This document shows positions 2-11,869 of a stretch of 13,556 nt of DNA, piece by piece (the stretch's first letter is position 1; each line of letters begins with the position of its first letter). Position numbers and translations under genes: made by a program. This DNA is from a bacterium (GTDB lineage Bacteria > Blakebacterota > Blakebacteria > Blakebacterales > Blakebacteraceae), in contig JALGWK010000051.1 in the NCBI GenBank assembly GCA_025774205.1, positions 1 through 13,556 on the forward strand, read 5' to 3'. The notes under the pieces were generated by a model that did not search any database, had not been told where the DNA came from, and worked only from the letters and a program-made list of their open reading frames with translations.

Positions 2-992
2 GGGAAATTCCCCAAGCCCGATTTCATCTGGCAGGATCACATCTGCTGCAGCCATGCCAAGTGGTACCAGGTGGTCACCGACATGGAGCCGGATATCCCC
101 CACTTCTGCACCGACGTGGGATCGGGCCCCTACCACGAACTGGACGAGAACCGTCTCAAGTATGTGGTGGATCAGCTCCACGACGGGATCGAGTGGCTGG
201 AGGAGAAGACCGGTCGGGAGTACGACGACGGGAAACTGTACGAGGCGGTGCACAACGAATGCCGCAGCACCTCCGTCTGGGCTGAGATCTGCAATCTGAA
301 CAAGGCCATCCCCGCGCCGCTCGATGAGAAGACGATGTATTCCCTCTATGTGCTGGGTACGCTTGAGAAGCACAGCAAGGTGGTGGCCGACTTCTACGAG
401 GAACTCCGCGACGAGGTGCAGGACCGGGTCGACAACGGCATCGCCGCGGTGGCGAACGAGCGCTGCCGGCTCATCTCCGACACCCAGCCGCCGTGGGGGT
501 TCCTGAAGGTCTTCCGCTACCTGGAGGAGTTCGGGGCGGTCTCGGTCGGTTCGCTCTACACCTTCGGCCTGATCGGCATCTGGGAGGTCAAGGAGGACGG
601 CACCTGGGGGCCCCGGACAACTCCTGCACAGCAGGGGGTCTCGTTCGAGTCGCGTGATCACGCGCTCCGCGTGCTGGCCGACTGGAACCTGAGCAAACCG
701 GAGTGGCAGCATTTCTATTCGCCGCAACTCAAGAGTGACATGATGCTTCGTATCGCCCGGGAGTGGGACCTTCAGGGTGTCCTCCTGGGGTGTCCTCCTG
801 CACTACAATCGCGGTTGCGAGGGACTGTCGATCGGTATCGCCGAGAACCGCCTGGCCCTGCAGAAGGAGGGCTACCCGGTGATGTCGTTCGAGGGGAACA
901 TGGGTGATGAGCGGGAGTTCGACGAGGCCCGGACAATGTCACGAATTGACACCTTCATGGAGACTCTCGGGCTGACCCGGGATTTCGCGTAG
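2..992 (+). pseudogene. bzdO: BzdO/BcrB-like catalytic subunit of ATP-dependent benzoyl-CoA reductase, 5'-truncated by the window edge and frameshifted
   Basis: The reading frame is open from base 2 and runs in one frame to about 787. It then continues in the next frame to the stop at 990-992. Across the break the protein reads [19 protein letters not shown] once one copy of a 13-bp tandem repeat (775-800) is skipped. Cysteines lie in ICCSHAK, HFCTD, NECRS and NRGCEG contexts. This pattern fits the HgdB/BcrB/BcrC family, whose subunits hold Fe-S clusters and the CoA-ester site; the C-terminal block with NRGCEG and ENRLAL looks most like the BcrB/BadE/BzdO type. About 326 codons are visible after correction; the family is roughly 430-450 residues, so the N-terminal quarter is off the left edge. 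As given, the raw frame ends at 907 with a nonsense tail after residue GVLLG. Two activases and a ferredoxin follow, the order N-O-P-Q-M of bzd clusters. A 2-hydroxyacyl-CoA dehydratase-like enzyme for another substrate remains possible. Confidence 0.8.
775..800. repeat. Exact 13-bp tandem duplication causing a frameshift
   Basis: GGGTGTCCTCCTG occurs at 775-787 and again, identically and head to tail, at 788-800. Thirteen is not a multiple of three, so the second copy shifts the frame of the BzdO-like gene by +1. Removing either copy gives one uninterrupted protein through the conserved [10 protein letters not shown] region. The event is therefore recent, or a sequence or assembly error. Confidence 0.95.
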
Positions 993-2810: not shown

Positions 2811-3086
2811 ATGAAAGCCAACTACGGCTACCACGACGGCTCGGGAGATTTCTTCATCACGATCGACAGCAACCTCTGCACCGGCTGTGTCGAGTGCATA
2901 TCGGCCTGTCCGGCGGATGTCCTGGAGATGATCACCGACGATTACGATGACGTTGTAGCAGCGGTGAAGGAAGAACACCGGAAGAAGATCAAGTACTCCT
3001 GCGCCGAATGCAAACCGGTCGATGAGCAGCCACCTCTGCCCTGTGTGTCAGCCTGTGAGCCGGGAGCCATCATCCACTCCTGGTGA
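2811..3086 (+). CDS. bzdM: 2[4Fe-4S] ferredoxin, BzdM-like electron donor
   Basis: A 91-residue soluble ferredoxin. The first cluster motif is the classical CX2CX2CX3CP (Cys23, 26, 29, 33). The second is stretched: Cys64, Cys67, then ten residues, Cys78, three residues, Cys82 followed by Glu-Pro (CX2CX10CX3CEP). Long second-cluster loops occur in Allochromatium/Thauera-type ferredoxins of unusually low potential; Thauera ferredoxin is the known donor to class I benzoyl-CoA reductase. A charged linker (about 43-60) joins the halves, longer than in clostridial ferredoxins. It lies 69 nt after the activases and 52 nt before the oxidoreductase, so it probably belongs to the same operon and shuttles electrons between them. 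The start is ATG 2811 with GGAGG at 2796-2800. The 2Fe or 3Fe content cannot be judged from sequence. Confidence 0.85.
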   Translation: MKANYGYHDGSGDFFITIDSNLCTGCVECISACPADVLEMITDDYDDVVAAVKEEHRKKIKYSCAECKPVDEQPPLPCVSACEPGAIIHSW

Positions 3087-3138
3087 TCGCGGCAGGTGGC
3101 TGGACGCTAGATACTGGTACCGATGTGACGGATACCCT

Positions 3139-5607
3139 ATGAGCACGATACGGCTCACCATCGAAAACACCCCGGTCGAGGTCCCGATCGGCACCTCTCT
3201 GCTCGATGCCGCCCGGACGGCGGATATCTATATCCCCTCTCTCTGTGATCATCCCGATTTGCCTCCCTGGCACGACCTGGACGAATGGCCGGAGGTGTTC
3301 CAGGGGGAGAATCGGATCGAAGGTGATCCGGCCACCGATCGGCCTGAGCCTGGTTGCGGTCTCTGCGTCGTGGCGGTGGATGGCGTCGATGAACCGGTCC
3401 GCGCCTGCGCGACGACTGTGGAAGACGGGATGCGGATCCGGGTCGAGGGCGAGGATCTGGGCGCCCTGCGACAGCAGAGACTCGGCGAGATATTCACCCA
3501 TCACCCCCACGCCTGCCTCACCTGCGCCCAGAAAGTCGGGTGCAGTCGGGAACCGTGCTCCAGTGATGTCCCGGTCGACGAGCGCTGCTGTCCGTTGCTG
3601 GGAAACTGTGAGCTGGAACGGGTTGCCGACCATGTGGGGATCCCCGCCGACGCACTCCGCTATCGTCCGGAGGGTCTGCCCCGGATCACTGATGATCCAC
3701 TCTTTGATCGCGACTTCAACCTCTGCATCGCCTGTACCCGGTGTGTCCGTGCCTGCCGCGATCTGCGTGGAGTCGACGTCATCGGTTTCACCTTCCACGA
3801 GGGTCGCTACCGTATCGGAACCCGGGCTCCTTCACTGGTCGATTCGGAGTGCCGCTTCTGCACCGCCTGTGTCGAGGTATGTCCGACCGGCGCTCTGCGC
3901 GACCGTGACCTGCCGGCCGGGAACAGGGAGGATGCCCTGGTAGCCTGCCGGACCGGCTGTCCTGCGCATACCGATGTTCCTGTTTACGTGGGGCTGGCCG
4001 CCGAAGGCCGCCTGGCTGAGTCGGCCGCGGTAGTGCGGGAGCGGGCGCCGCTGGTCCACGTTCTGGGACATGTCTGCTTCCATCCCTGCGAATCGGTCTG
4101 TCGCCGGGGTGAGGTGAACGATTCCGTGGCCATCCGGGCGGTCAAACGGACCGCCGCCGAGCATGATGACGGTCGCTGGAAGGAGATGTATCCGCAACCC
4201 GAACCGACGGGGAGAAAAGTGGCGGTTATCGGGGCCGGACCGGCAGGTATCACAGCCTCGTATTTCCTCAACGCGGCCGGTCACGCGGTCACCCTCATCG
4301 ATCGGGAAGATAGGGTGGGGGGCATGCTCAGGAGCGCCATCCCGACCTTCCGGCTCCCCCGTGAAGACCTCGAGCGGGAGGTCGCCGACATCATCGACCT
4401 GGGCATCGAGGTGCGCGCCGGATTCGAACTGGGGCGTGACGGCTCGATCGACGATCTCCTCGACAACGAGTTCAACGCGCTCCTGCTGGCCACCGGCGCC
4501 GGGAAGAGCAAACGGATCCCGCTGCCCGGGAATGACCTGAACGGCGTCTGGTGGGGGCTCGAGTTCCTGAGGGAGAGCAGCATCGGCTCCCCGCCGGAAC
4601 TGTCGGGGCGCTGTGTGGTAGTCGGAGGCGGTAATGTGGCCATGGACGTGGCCCGCTCGGCCTGGCGACTGGGAGCCGATAGCGTGGATCTCCTCTGTCT
4701 CGAATCGGAGGCGGAGATCCCGGCGTACGAGTCGGAGATCGCCGAAGCGCTGGAGGAGGGGGTGCGCATCCATTATGGCTGGGGTCCGGTGGAGATCACC
4801 GGGACCGGGGAAGAGGGCACGGTATCGGAGATCGTCTTCCGTCGCTGCCTCAGCGTGTTCGATGACGCGGGCGCTTTCGCACCGACCTACGATGACGACG
4901 AAACCCGCACCATTTCGGCGGAGAACGTGATCCTGGCAATCGGACAGGAAGTGGAAGCGGTCGAGGGTGATCGCGATCGGGCCGGTCTCTTCAGGGCCGG
5001 TGACTTCCTCACGGGACCCGCTTCGGTGATCGAGGCGATCGCGTCCGGCCGCGGCGCCGCCGAGGAGATCGACACCTTCCTGGGCGGAACGGGAGACGTC
5101 ACTCTGCGTCTCGTCGAGCGTGACCCGATACCGACCTTCCTGGGCCGGGAAGAAGGATTCGCCGGGCGCTCGCGACTCGACGTGCCCTGTCTTCCGGACG
5201 AGGATCGCCGATCATTCAAAACCCTCTCTCTCGGCCTTGATGCCAAGGCAACGCAGGCGGAAGGATCCCGTTGTCTCCGCTGCGACATGCGTCTGGAAAT
5301 CGCGCCCGTAACGCTGCCCCCCAGACTCTGGCTCGACTTCACTCCCGAACAGGTCGCGGAAGTGCCGTCGGAACCGGGTGCCTATCAGCTTCTGGATGGC
5401 ACCGGGAAGGTGATGGCAGTGGTGGGTGTTCCCGACCTGAGGGAGGCGCTTCTGGGACGGGTGGAAGAAAAAGGCGAAGCGGTCTATTTCCTCTACCAGG
5501 AAGATCCGATGTATACCCGTCTTGAGAGTGAACTCCTCCAGCAGTGCCTCCAGCAGCAGGGGGAGATGCCGGGAGGAGCTCTCGACGACCTGGACGATCT
5601 CTTCTGA
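3139..5607 (+). CDS. bzdV: Large Fe-S/FAD NAD(P)H:ferredoxin oxidoreductase (BzdV-like) with a degenerate GIY-YIG-like C-terminal domain
   Basis: An 822-residue multidomain electron-transfer protein. Residues 1-95 form a NuoG-like [2Fe-2S] domain (Cys36, 73, 76, 90). Residues 122-135 give HX3CX2CX5C, the His-ligated [4Fe-4S] of NuoG and Fe-hydrogenases. Residues 196-206 and 238-248 are two four-Cys cluster motifs, the second ending CP. Residues 270-340 are the GltD-type cysteine domain (CRTGCPAH, CFHPCESVCRRG). Next come an FAD fold (GAGPAG, 365-370), an NAD(P) fold (GGGNVAMD, 496-503), a second FAD motif (about 619-641) and CLRC (712-715). Residues 731-813 look like a degraded GIY-YIG domain. 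The likely role is to move electrons between NADPH and the upstream ferredoxin, as proposed for BzdV in Azoarcus or the flavoprotein subunit of 2-oxoglutarate:NADP+ oxidoreductase. ATG 3139 was chosen because the 2Fe-2S fold begins there; an in-frame ATG at 3022 would overlap the ferredoxin gene. The ribosome binding site is weak. Confidence 0.85.
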   Translation: MSTIRLTIENTPVEVPIGTSLLDAARTADIYIPSLCDHPDLPPWHDLDEWPEVFQGENRIEGDPATDRPEPGCGLCVVAVDGVDEPVRACATTVEDGMRIRVEGEDLGALRQQRLGEIFTHHPHACLTCAQKVGCSREPCSSDVPVDERCCPLLGNCELERVADHVGIPADALRYRPEGLPRITDDPLFDRDFNLCIACTRCVRACRDLRGVDVIGFTFHEGRYRIGTRAPSLVDSECRFCTACVEVCPTGALRDRDLPAGNREDALVACRTGCPAHTDVPVYVGLAAEGRLAESAAVVRERAPLVHVLGHVCFHPCESVCRRGEVNDSVAIRAVKRTAAEHDDGRWKEMYPQPEPTGRKVAVIGAGPAGITASYFLNAAGHAVTLIDREDRVGGMLRSAIPTFRLPREDLEREVADIIDLGIEVRAGFELGRDGSIDDLLDNEFNALLLATGAGKSKRIPLPGNDLNGVWWGLEFLRESSIGSPPELSGRCVVVGGGNVAMDVARSAWRLGADSVDLLCLESEAEIPAYESEIAEALEEGVRIHYGWGPVEITGTGEEGTVSEIVFRRCLSVFDDAGAFAPTYDDDETRTISAENVILAIGQEVEAVEGDRDRAGLFRAGDFLTGPASVIEAIASGRGAAEEIDTFLGGTGDVTLRLVERDPIPTFLGREEGFAGRSRLDVPCLPDEDRRSFKTLSLGLDAKATQAEGSRCLRCDMRLEIAPVTLPPRLWLDFTPEQVAEVPSEPGAYQLLDGTGKVMAVVGVPDLREALLGRVEEKGEAVYFLYQEDPMYTRLESELLQQCLQQQGEMPGGALDDLDDLF

Positions 5608-5924: not shown

Positions 5925-7019
5925 ATGAATACCCCTCTTCATTGTAGGTTTTTGCCCTGTGTCCTGTTCCTTTTCTTCGTCGGCTGTTCAGTACAACCCG
6001 TTGAGCCCGCGGAGCTTGAATTGGGGATTGCAGCGGGACGAGGCCATGATCCGGTCCCGGAACTGGCCTTTATCGGTCGTACTGATGCACCGTTCATTTC
6101 GGTTGTGGATCTCCCGTCCATGACGGAAGTGGCCCAGATTCAAGTCCCTGGCTATTCAGCCTTTAACATCACAATAGCAAACAACAGGAAATATGCTTAT
6201 GCAACTGGTACGGGCTCCGATCGCTTGAAGCCTGGACTGCTGTACGAAATCGATCTGTCAACGTTTTCAGTTGTCAGAACAGTTGTCATAGATCCCAATT
6301 TCAGTACCACCGATCTGGTGATAACACCTGACGGTAAGCGTATTGTTATTACAATGTACAGGAAACATGAAGTTGCTGTTGTAGATGCTCAGACGTTGAG
6401 TGTAGTGGCTTTCATTCCACTGACAGATAACAACGATTATGTTAACGGAATAGCAATAGGACCTGGCGGGCGGCACGTTTTTGTTTCCAGCCAAGTTTCG
6501 GGGAGAGTTCATGTAATTGATACAGATGAATTGAGTGTTGCTGCTGTTGTAGAAACCGGAGCTGCCAGTGTCAACGAGTTGGCTCTTACGCAAAATGGCC
6601 AATATATCTATGGCACGGCTGGCGGCAATGATGCAGTGATCTTGATTGATGCCAGAACATTTGAGGTCGTGGAAAACATTCCTGTCAGTCCATACCCCGT
6701 GGGAATCGCCATTCCCAAAAATGGACGAGAAGCTGCTGTTGTTCACCAACAAGGATACACACAGGGACACTCACTACTTACAATTCTTGACACCAGGACG
6801 GCTTCTGTTGTTGCTACTCTGGATATACCAGGAGGCGCCCGCCGTATTGCCATATCACAAAACGGTCATCTGGCCGTCGTTACCACAACGGCAGGCAATG
6901 TCGTTCTTGTTGATATTCCCAATCGTGAGATACTGGCAGTGGAAGAATTAGATCCAGGATCACAGAATGGACTCTTTGGGGTGGCAATTACGAACGGTGC
7001 CAGATTTAACAAGCCATGA
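5925..7019 (+). CDS. Exported lipoprotein with YVTN-type seven-bladed beta-propeller
   Basis: A 364-residue protein. A hydrophobic signal peptide ends in the lipobox LFFVGC, so Cys21 should be lipidated and the protein anchored facing the periplasm or cell surface. From about residue 45 to the end run repeated blades of the type seen in YVTN/surface-layer propellers: VVDLPSMTEVAQIQVPG, VVDAQTLSVVAFIPL, VIDTDELSVAAVVETG, LIDARTFEVVENIPVS, ILDTRTASVVATLDIPG, alternating with ITPDGKRIVIT- or IGPGGRHVFVS-like strands. Such proteins bind ligands or partners; no catalytic residues can be named. AAGGAG at 5912-5917 lies 7 nt before the ATG. The gene is visibly AT-richer (many AAT, GTT and ATA codons) than the reductase cluster, has its own promoter, and looks like an independent, possibly transferred unit. 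Function is unknown. Confidence 0.85.
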   Translation: MNTPLHCRFLPCVLFLFFVGCSVQPVEPAELELGIAAGRGHDPVPELAFIGRTDAPFISVVDLPSMTEVAQIQVPGYSAFNITIANNRKYAYATGTGSDRLKPGLLYEIDLSTFSVVRTVVIDPNFSTTDLVITPDGKRIVITMYRKHEVAVVDAQTLSVVAFIPLTDNNDYVNGIAIGPGGRHVFVSSQVSGRVHVIDTDELSVAAVVETGAASVNELALTQNGQYIYGTAGGNDAVILIDARTFEVVENIPVSPYPVGIAIPKNGREAAVVHQQGYTQGHSLLTILDTRTASVVATLDIPGGARRIAISQNGHLAVVTTTAGNVVLVDIPNREILAVEELDPGSQNGLFGVAITNGARFNKP

Positions 7020-8985: not shown

Positions 8986-10419
8986 TTAATTGATTCCCGG
9001 TATCAGGAATCGGGTTCGGCTTTTTCCGACAACGCCTTCCGCATACCGGCGCGGGCCTTCGAATCGGGAAGCGACTCGACAGCATCCCGGAGAGTGTCGA
9101 GCGGGAACCAGCGCTGAGAAAGCGGCCATTTTCGGGCCTCGATCCCGGAAGTCCACCTGCTCGATCGTCTGCGGACCATCCGGAATCGCGATTGAAGCAA
9201 GAGCAGGTTCGTTTACAACCTCCGATTCAGCCTCAGACGCATCCGATCCCTGCGGGTCTGTATACAGGGAGATCGTGACCGTCGGATGGGCCAGGCCGGC
9301 GTCTGTCGGTTCGACCGTCGGTTTCGGAGAGGACGCATCCGGTACCGGAACCTCCAGGGAGGTATCGAGCACAAGTCTCCTGATTCCCGGGAGGTGTTCC
9401 CTCGTGAAGCGTAATCCATCGACAGAGCTGACCAGGGCAACATCCTGGTGTTCCCCGGCAGGAGAGAGGATGGGATCAGAAGAGAGCAGCATGAAGGCCA
9501 CCGAAAAACCTTTTCCGACGGTCACCGGGTACTCGCCGCGGATAGCGACCTCGAGTCCGGCCCGCATCGCCGCCCGGGCGAAAAGTTCGGCAGCACTCTG
9601 AACGCCCTCGCCAGCCGATCCGGCAAGCAGGATCCGAACCGATCCGTCAAGTTGGTGGCGTGGCTGGCGCGGGATCAGCGGGGTCTCATGCGGCTCCGGG
9701 TCGGGATCGAATCGATACGGCGGTACTGCCGTCCCGGCGGGATGCTCTCCAAAGACCAGGCCCTGCTCCTCGAAGAAGGCCCTCATCACCTTCGGCTTGA
9801 GGGTTTCCGGGTTGTACTTGCCGGAATAGGAGGGACAGAAATTCATGGTCTCGACCAGTGAGAAACCCTGATGATTCAGGGCCGATTCCAGCGATTCGAC
9901 CAGGCCGCGCTCGTTGGCCAACACCCGAACCCGATGCACGTCGAGAGGGGCGACCAGCTCGCACAGGCGGAAGGGGGACTGCCTGGCTCCGTCCGGTGTG
10001 GTCGGCGTGGTCACGCCGAGGCAGGTGTAGGCGGAGTGCTGCCCGCCTGTCATCCCGTAGTTCTGGTTGTTGCACACGATCAGGGTCAGGTTCACGTTAA
10101 GTCGGGCGGCTTCCATGATGTGCTGAAGGCCGATGGCCGCGCCTCCGTCACCCATGAGTACCACGACTCTGACATGTGGCGGGGACGATATGGCGATACC
10201 GGTGCCGAGCGCGGGCGCGCGACCGTGCAGACCGTGGACGGTGTGGCTGGTGAAAAGACGGTCGGCCATGCCGATACAGCCGATGTCGGTGACCAGTACG
10301 GTTTCGCGCGGATTCCCCGTCCGTTCCAGCGCTTCCTGCAGGCCGCGGATGACCGAGGTGTGACCGCATCCCGGACACCACGGATCGGGCGCGCCGCTGG
10401 CGAATATCCCGGCCGTCAT
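8986..10419 (-). CDS. korB: 2-oxoacid:ferredoxin oxidoreductase, beta-gamma fusion (KorB-like), C-terminus frameshifted
   Basis: A 477-residue raw frame. Residues 1-~240 are the beta (TPP) subunit. WCPGCGH (Cys15, Cys18), Cys48 and Cys195 are the likely [4Fe-4S] ligands, and GDGG (90-93) with NN (117-118) is the thiamine diphosphate/Mg motif. After a linker, residues ~260 onward are the gamma domain, starting ILLAGSAGEGVQSAAELFARAA, the motif that opens CoA-site gamma subunits. The gamma part has an unusual acidic, Pro/Ser-rich insertion (about 375-420). The end is shifted: the raw frame goes ...FSALVPARHSPGCC and stops at 8986. Dropping one base from the GGG at 9103-9105 gives ...FSALVPLDTLRDAVESL... 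and a stop at 9003-9005, matching the normal gamma end. A strong AGGAGGT (10426-10432) precedes the ATG, which overlaps the alpha stop by 4 nt. 2-Oxoglutarate is the likely substrate by context; pyruvate or branched-chain acids are not excluded. Confidence 0.85.
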   Translation of the reverse strand: MTAGIFASGAPDPWCPGCGHTSVIRGLQEALERTGNPRETVLVTDIGCIGMADRLFTSHTVHGLHGRAPALGTGIAISSPPHVRVVVLMGDGGAAIGLQHIMEAARLNVNLTLIVCNNQNYGMTGGQHSAYTCLGVTTPTTPDGARQSPFRLCELVAPLDVHRVRVLANERGLVESLESALNHQGFSLVETMNFCPSYSGKYNPETLKPKVMRAFFEEQGLVFGEHPAGTAVPPYRFDPDPEPHETPLIPRQPRHQLDGSVRILLAGSAGEGVQSAAELFARAAMRAGLEVAIRGEYPVTVGKGFSVAFMLLSSDPILSPAGEHQDVALVSSVDGLRFTREHLPGIRRLVLDTSLEVPVPDASSPKPTVEPTDAGLAHPTVTISLYTDPQGSDASEAESEVVNEPALASIAIPDGPQTIEQVDFRDRGPKMAAFSALVPARHSPGCCRVASRFEGPRRYAEGVVGKSRTRFLIPGIN

Positions 10420-11597
10420 GATCGCACCTCCTGCTCCCCGAGCCCGACGGGATCCGGCGGCAATTGATCAGGATCGCAGAGTACCGCCCGCACGATCTCC
10501 TCCGGCGCCACCGGACGACCCATCACGTTCAGCGAGATCACCGCCTCAACCGGCAGGTTCCTGAGCAATCCCTCGCCGAGAAGCGCCTTTCTATACAGGC
10601 CGGTGCTGTTCTCCTCGGGGATGATGAGCCGGCGCACCCCCTGAAGGGCCTCGCGGATCGGCTCAACCAGGACGGGCGCGAGCGTGCGAACCACCAGAAG
10701 TGACACCTTCCGACCCATCGATCGCAACTGGGCGACAGCTTCGCGGGCCGCGTAGGTGGTGAAGCCGTAGGTCAGGATCAGATCTTCGGCTCCTTCTTCG
10801 CTATCGTGCAGGCAGGGCGGGAACAGGTCCAGACTCTCATGCACCAGGAGCCGTTCGGTGTCATGGCGTACTCTTTCACTGAAACTGCCGATGATGCCAC
10901 GGGCGTCGTGGGTCGAGGCCGTGACGCGGACCTGCATCTCGGGATGACCAAGAGGCGTGAAGGCCGGCACTTCACGCTCGTCCAGGTGACTGTAAGGCTG
11001 ATAGTCGGAGGGATCACCCTGATAGAGCCGACGATTCACAGGCTCGGGCAGGTTCAGCGTGCTGGTGTCGATCGAGCGCTTGCCGACCACCATGTCCCGT
11101 TCCGTCAGCAGCACCACGGGCACGCGCAGCTGTTCGGACACGTTGACGGTATGGACGGTCATCTCCGCGCATTCTTCGACACTCGAGGGGCAGAGGACCG
11201 GTACCACAAAGCCGCCCGAGATGATATTGCTCACCAGCCCCACATCGCCCTGGGCGTTCATGGTCGCCGATCCTGTAGCGGGGCCGAGCCGCTGCACCAG
11301 CACGACCGTGAGGGCGGCCTCCATGGCCAGGGCGGCGCCGATCCCCTCGGCCATCAGCAGAAAGCCCGGTCCCGAGGTGGCGGTCATCGCCTTGTGACCG
11401 TTGAGTGACGCCCCGATGAGGTATTGCAGAGCGGTGATCTCGTCGGGCGCTGAGATGCCGACGCCCGATCGGATCATCTCGGTATAGATACCCGAAGCAG
11501 GTGTGATCGGATATCCCACGAAAAAGTCCACTCCCGCGTGGAGAGCGCCCTTCGCGACGAGGAAGGATCCATCGGTCAGAGAGGCAGTATCACTCAT
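10416..11597 (-). CDS. korA: 2-oxoacid:ferredoxin oxidoreductase alpha subunit (KorA-like)
   Basis: A 393-residue alpha subunit (pyrimidine-binding domain I plus transketolase C-terminal-like domain II). The signature GYPITPAS (28-35) marks the substrate/TPP pocket. Asp52-Glu53 in DEITALQYLIGAS should include the Glu that activates the aminopyrimidine of TPP. AMTATSGPGF (70-79) is near invariant in the family, and QRLGPATG with a downstream QGD follows the KorA/VorB pattern. The C-terminal half (about 260-370) is the domain II Rossmann fold. There is no fused gamma domain at the N-terminus; that domain is on the beta partner. The enzyme would oxidise a 2-oxoacid plus CoA to acyl-CoA, CO2 and two reduced ferredoxin equivalents. 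In Thauera aromatica such a 2-oxoglutarate enzyme recharges the ferredoxin used by benzoyl-CoA reductase. The ribosome binding site before ATG 11597 is poor. The gene overlaps its partner by ATGA. Confidence 0.87.
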   Translation of the reverse strand: MSDTASLTDGSFLVAKGALHAGVDFFVGYPITPASGIYTEMIRSGVGISAPDEITALQYLIGASLNGHKAMTATSGPGFLLMAEGIGAALAMEAALTVVLVQRLGPATGSATMNAQGDVGLVSNIISGGFVVPVLCPSSVEECAEMTVHTVNVSEQLRVPVVLLTERDMVVGKRSIDTSTLNLPEPVNRRLYQGDPSDYQPYSHLDEREVPAFTPLGHPEMQVRVTASTHDARGIIGSFSERVRHDTERLLVHESLDLFPPCLHDSEEGAEDLILTYGFTTYAAREAVAQLRSMGRKVSLLVVRTLAPVLVEPIREALQGVRRLIIPEENSTGLYRKALLGEGLLRNLPVEAVISLNVMGRPVAPEEIVRAVLCDPDQLPPDPVGLGEQEVRS

Positions 11598-11869
11598 GGA
11601 CAGTCTTTTCTGCCGAGTGTCGGCTCAGTTGCCGGTGCAGCCGATATCAGGTGCATCAGGTCTGTATGGCCAGATCTGCAGGGCCAGATCTGCAGGGTAG
11701 AGAGTCATCGCGAATGGCCGACTGCTTCCCGGTTGGTGCAATATGAGGTACTACCGACTGCTCCCGGTATAGTATTTATGATGTGAAGATCTGATTTCTT
11801 TACAAAACTAATCCGGATTCAGGTGGTAACAGGGGTACATCAGATCGACACCCGTAAGGAGAATGTGTG
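11598..11869. other. Divergent intergenic region between the kor-like genes and the propeller gene
   Basis: This 272-bp gap must hold promoters for both directions. It contains the 14-bp tandem repeat (11668-11695) and a direct repeat CCGACTGCTTCCCGGT (11718-11733) / CCGACTGCTCCCGGT (11754-11768). A TATAGT at 11768-11773 is a possible -10 box for the rightward gene, but no good -35 stands 17 bp upstream. I see no gene in it. Confidence 0.5.
11668..11695. repeat. Exact 14-bp tandem duplication
   Basis: GGCCAGATCTGCAG occurs at 11668-11681 and again, identically, at 11682-11695. It lies in the presumed leader of the minus-strand kor-like genes, about 70-100 bp before their start, and includes the palindrome CAGATCTG in each copy. 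Confidence 0.95.

Follow-up and report, generated by a model that had tools for sequence, protein, structure and literature searches.

Background

The catalytic subunit BzdO of bzd-type (class I) benzoyl-CoA reductase has been described from Aromatoleum, where Cys380 is one of the three cysteines holding the active-site [4Fe-4S] cluster, and replacement of these cysteines by alanine has been reported to give unstable variants (PMC11971306). A frame break close to such a residue may come from the organism or from the assembly of its genome. Many local errors have been suspected in assemblies made with IDBA-UD (Chen et al., PMC7111523), and at joins between pieces with overlapping flanks duplicate sequence has been found to remain around the Ns (PMC7111523).

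The DNA analyzed here (the window) is the whole stretch of 13,556 nucleotides presented as contig JALGWK010000051.1 of assembly GCA_025774205.1, a metagenome-assembled genome (MAG) of the family Blakebacteraceae. The lineage is an isolated one: among 59 relatives one belongs to the same genus and two to the same family, and the next share only the domain. In this work we have analyzed a 13-bp tandem duplication inside the bzdO frame of the window, comparing the site with related genomes and counting duplications of the same class through the assembly.

Results

The duplication and the interrupted gene

The unit GGGTGTCCTCCTG, read directly in the sequence at 775-787 of the forward strand, is followed at 788-800 by a second exact copy, which is absent from the same-genus genome and was probably written by the assembler. 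The two copies form an exact head-to-tail pair with no extra match in the flanks. An exact tandem pair with a period of 12-40 was found in 0 of 300 simulated windows matched to the window in dinucleotide composition, so the repeat is not a chance match, and the exact duplication at 775-800 recorded by the first-pass annotation is confirmed. As 13 mod 3 = 1, the unit changes the reading frame of bzdO.

Judged by its profile matches, the broken gene is bzdO, coding for the catalytic subunit of bzd-type (class I) benzoyl-CoA reductase. TIGR03191 matches in two frames, upstream (2-907, forward strand; model positions 107-367) with 406 bits and downstream (789-992, forward strand; positions 364-428) with 101 bits, in agreement with the earlier claim of a frame break in a benzoyl-CoA reductase-like catalytic subunit; the cut-off of the model is 448.6 bits, which neither of the separate frames reaches, and its first 106 positions lie off the contig. 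The upstream frame, truncated at its 5′ end because the contig starts there, continues into 39 out-of-frame residues and a stop, and the downstream frame extends from the motif HYNRGCEG to the natural stop. The cysteine of NRGCEG aligns to Cys380 of the Aromatoleum BzdO structure (PDB 8s02), and the frameshift falls a few codons before this third cysteine ligand of the active-site cluster. The codon for the Cys380 equivalent is present in the DNA, but in the assembled sequence it is out of frame with the upstream part of bzdO, while it is in frame in the same-genus relative. Translated as assembled, the two-copy product would lack the Cys380 ligand together with the rest of the C-terminal part, would carry 39 unrelated residues and would presumably be inactive.

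In comparison with the same-genus relative, dN and dS amount to 0.018 and 0.461 upstream of the site and to 0.014 and 0.423 downstream of it, giving dN/dS of ~0.03-0.04 on both sides of the duplication. By this measure both halves of bzdO are strongly constrained, so that the duplication must either have arisen very recently or be missing from the organism itself. A second intact bzdO was sought in the same genome and not found; this search otherwise hit only contig C499, which encodes a distant HGD-D paralogue.

Operon and neighboring genes

The contig starts within bzdO, at about codon 107, and neither bzdN nor the start of bzdO was found anywhere in this MAG, which is 86% complete. The earlier statement that all partner genes look functional is therefore too strong, as this incomplete genome lacks bzdN and the first 106 codons of bzdO. 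On the same-genus contig an ORF of 375 amino acids lies directly upstream of bzdO. Downstream of bzdO in the window the forward strand encodes a BzdP-like activase of the BadF/BcrA type (1069-1869; TIGR00241, 208 bits), the bzdQ activase (1866-2741; TIGR03192, 433 bits, above the cut-off) and a ferredoxin (2811-3086; Pfam Fer4 matches), so that bzdO shares an operon with the BzdQ activase and ferredoxin.

Adjoining the ferredoxin gene, positions 3022-5607 encode a large protein in which an Nqo3/NuoG-like [2Fe-2S] part is fused to a GltD-like NAD(P) oxidoreductase; it may be an electron-transfer protein of the BzdV-like kind. A beta-propeller protein encoded at 5925-7019 has a weak match to the lactonase-type nitrous-oxide reductase (87 bits, cut-off 700) and is probably a generic YVTN propeller. 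On the minus strand (8986-11597) lies a two-gene 2-oxoacid:ferredoxin oxidoreductase, whose beta subunit (477 amino acids) has a gamma-type POR domain on its C-terminal side; by analogy with other benzoyl-CoA reductase clusters, the reductase could obtain its reduced ferredoxin from this enzyme. Just upstream of these minus-strand genes there is an imperfect 14-bp repeat in 2.9 copies (11657-11697).

The site in related genomes

Comparison with the closest genomes had been proposed as a check in the first-pass annotation. The same-genus MAG (contig JALGVQ010000058.1, isolate Meg19_1012_Bin_119) encodes an intact BzdO of 441 amino acids; its sequence is 83% identical to the window over 5.6 kb and in the alignment lacks exactly 13 bases at the site, corresponding to one copy. 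A further 59 loci with a recognized motif, from many phyla, were single copy and in frame without exception (59/59), so two copies were seen in none of these relatives. At a phase-variable locus the repeat would be kept in relatives or would vary in copy number, but all motif-bearing relatives have the single copy.

It is thus very improbable that the 13-bp repeat acts as a reversible switch, turning benzoyl-CoA reductase off and on by slippage between two copies and one. In principle, loss of a copy can restore the frame wherever an exact tandem repeat has a unit that is not a multiple of three, but no relative, in the same genus or among the 59 motif loci, has kept this repeat, and duplications of the same class are scattered over unrelated genes. 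Known contingency loci are long arrays, and two copies of 13 bp are far from that.

Even less credible is that programmed ribosomal frameshifting reads through the junction and makes the two-copy form functional with about four extra residues. A GGGG run lies across the junction (787-790), where slipping by -1 would restore the downstream frame, but a slippery heptamer is not seen, the additional residues would adjoin the Cys380 loop at a place where relatives have no insertion, and those relatives are all single copy.

Census of exact two-copy tandem duplications

Exact two-copy tandem repeats with a period of 12 or more, lying outside longer arrays, were counted in 75 unmasked contigs (510 kb) of this 527-contig MAG and in 41 contigs (363 kb) of the same-genus MAG. 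Eleven duplications were found in the first sample (21.6 per Mb), where ~0.07 would be expected by chance, and three in the second (8.3 per Mb). The control sample, consisting of 79 loci of other genomes (851 kb) that all lie around bzdO and hence not a random genome sample, contained one (1.2 per Mb); against it the excess in this MAG is significant (binomial p = 1.6e-4), and that in the same-genus MAG falls short of significance (p = 0.08). Extrapolation to 3.09 Mb would give several dozen duplication sites.

The periods of the eleven duplications (13, 14, 15, 21, 22, 22, 25, 28, 32, 33 and 104 bp) do not exceed 104 bp, and eight of the eleven are not multiples of three, as in the two thirds expected without selection on frame. 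Homology at the junctions beyond the two copies is 0, 1 or 2 bp (n = 11), and the sites lie nearer to contig ends than expected, although weakly so (p = 0.04). Ku-dependent end joining was considered as a source of such homology-free duplications and discarded, because no Ku protein was detected in either genome of the genus, both of them incomplete.

Some of the duplications cut recognizable genes. On contig C10 (locus L118) a 22-bp duplication at 375-418 splits pyruvate phosphate dikinase, TIGR01828 being matched over positions 479-609 in one frame and 603-864 in the next. Another of 22 bp, on contig C26 (locus L135, 3043-3086), splits a DUF1846 protein between model positions 3-181 and 173-492. 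On contig C7 (locus L115, 1484-1540) a 28-bp duplication interrupts, according to the open-frame analysis, a frame matching a TonB-dependent receptor. Further exact two-copy duplications of this MAG lie at 267-474 of L133, 784-849 of L147 and 864-913 of L166. The same-genus genome has a single copy at the dikinase and DUF1846 sites, with a gap of exactly 22 bp at each, and the duplications of L133 and L162 also have counterparts there, with gaps; for those of L115, L147, L155, L166 and L187 the sampled contigs of that MAG contained no counterpart. Exact duplications blind to the reading frame thus recur through the assembly and are absent from relatives, which is the pattern expected of unmerged overlaps.

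These data bear on the proposal that bzdO of this strain was inactivated by a real tandem duplication of very recent date, or that the assembler picked a minority allele with such a break. The repeat is exact and its flanks are intact and constrained, as expected of a young mutation, and the shift costs a cluster ligand, Cys380, in a protein whose cluster-cysteine alanine variants have been reported as unstable (PMC11971306). Nevertheless we consider this origin unlikely, since ten further exact duplications occur in the 510 kb, some of them in housekeeping genes, with no bias towards multiples of three, and no Ku was found for homology-free joining. A single living genome is unlikely to hold this many recent breaks, and it is difficult to believe that one strain carries young, frame-blind, homology-free duplications in such number, including one in an enzyme of central metabolism.

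The three duplications of the same-genus MAG, of 38, 35 and 76 bp (L223, 3965-4040; L233, 16320-16389; L232, 3814-3965), the first two of which interrupt open frames, leave room for a property of the lineage and speak against an artefact to that extent. The duplications would then be real DNA, both genomes of the genus representing a deep-branching sediment lineage that makes homology-free short tandem duplications unusually often, and individual cells or strains would for a time carry many broken genes, bzdO included. A mutational habit of this kind seems rather improbable, more so than a single recent mutation, and a shared assembler explains the three duplications equally well.

Discussion

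The second 13-bp copy is most probably an error of metagenome assembly. Two contigs would have ended in the same 13 bases, and a scaffolding step would have set these ends side by side, adding no gap letters and leaving the shared end unmerged, so that the overlap was written twice. If the estimated gap at such joins was zero or negative, overlaps of 13-104 bases would be duplicated at joins generally, and the living population would have one copy and an intact BzdO. We infer the joining step itself; in the literature searched, nothing specific was found that directly describes how negative-gap joins produce duplications.

The relative was obtained from Megamat cores of the Guaymas Basin (Meg19); their reads were assembled with IDBA-UD and scaffolds of >2000 bp binned (PMC10290634; PMC9727166). 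The smallest contig sampled in the present MAG measures 2088 bp, and from this length floor and the relative the MAG presumably originates from the same kind of pipeline (IDBA-UD). Short scaffolding runs of N, of 7 and 11 letters, occur in both genomes. Against an assembly error it has to be said that there are no Ns between the copies at 775-800, unlike in the published error.

The first-pass annotation had listed four causes under a title favoring a biological break or switch. Assembly error, one of the four, has been strengthened by the census, and the switch is without support, as no relative keeps the repeat. The organism's own bzdO gene is probably intact, and the organism should still be regarded as a probable anaerobic aromatic degrader. 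The case warns that gene loss or phase variation should not be read from frameshifts in a single MAG. The extrapolated census points to dozens of falsely duplicated sites in this draft genome, some in central metabolic genes, and a census of exact two-copy tandem repeats offers a simple aid for telling assembly joins from biology.

Comparison with known systems

With phase-variable (contingency) loci the window shares a tandem repeat, with a unit that is not a multiple of three, inside a coding frame; it differs in having two copies only, conserved in no relative, in a gene for a catabolic enzyme, with similar duplications in unrelated genes. The resemblance to the local assembly error seen in IDBA-UD and CLC assemblies (PMC7111523) is that both overlapping contig ends are kept, but in that error N letters stand between the copies, whereas in the window the copies abut directly. 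Among class I benzoyl-CoA reductases, the intact same-genus relative aligns near full length to BzdO of Aromatoleum sp. CIB (PDB 8s02, 8s1t, 8s2r; PMC11971306; phmmer E = 2.3e-195), and Cys380 is conserved together with the residues around it. The frame of the window, as assembled, breaks before the Cys380 equivalent, so that its product would be without this ligand, but its operon has, like class I systems, BzdQ, a BzdP-like activase, a ferredoxin and a GltD-like oxidoreductase.
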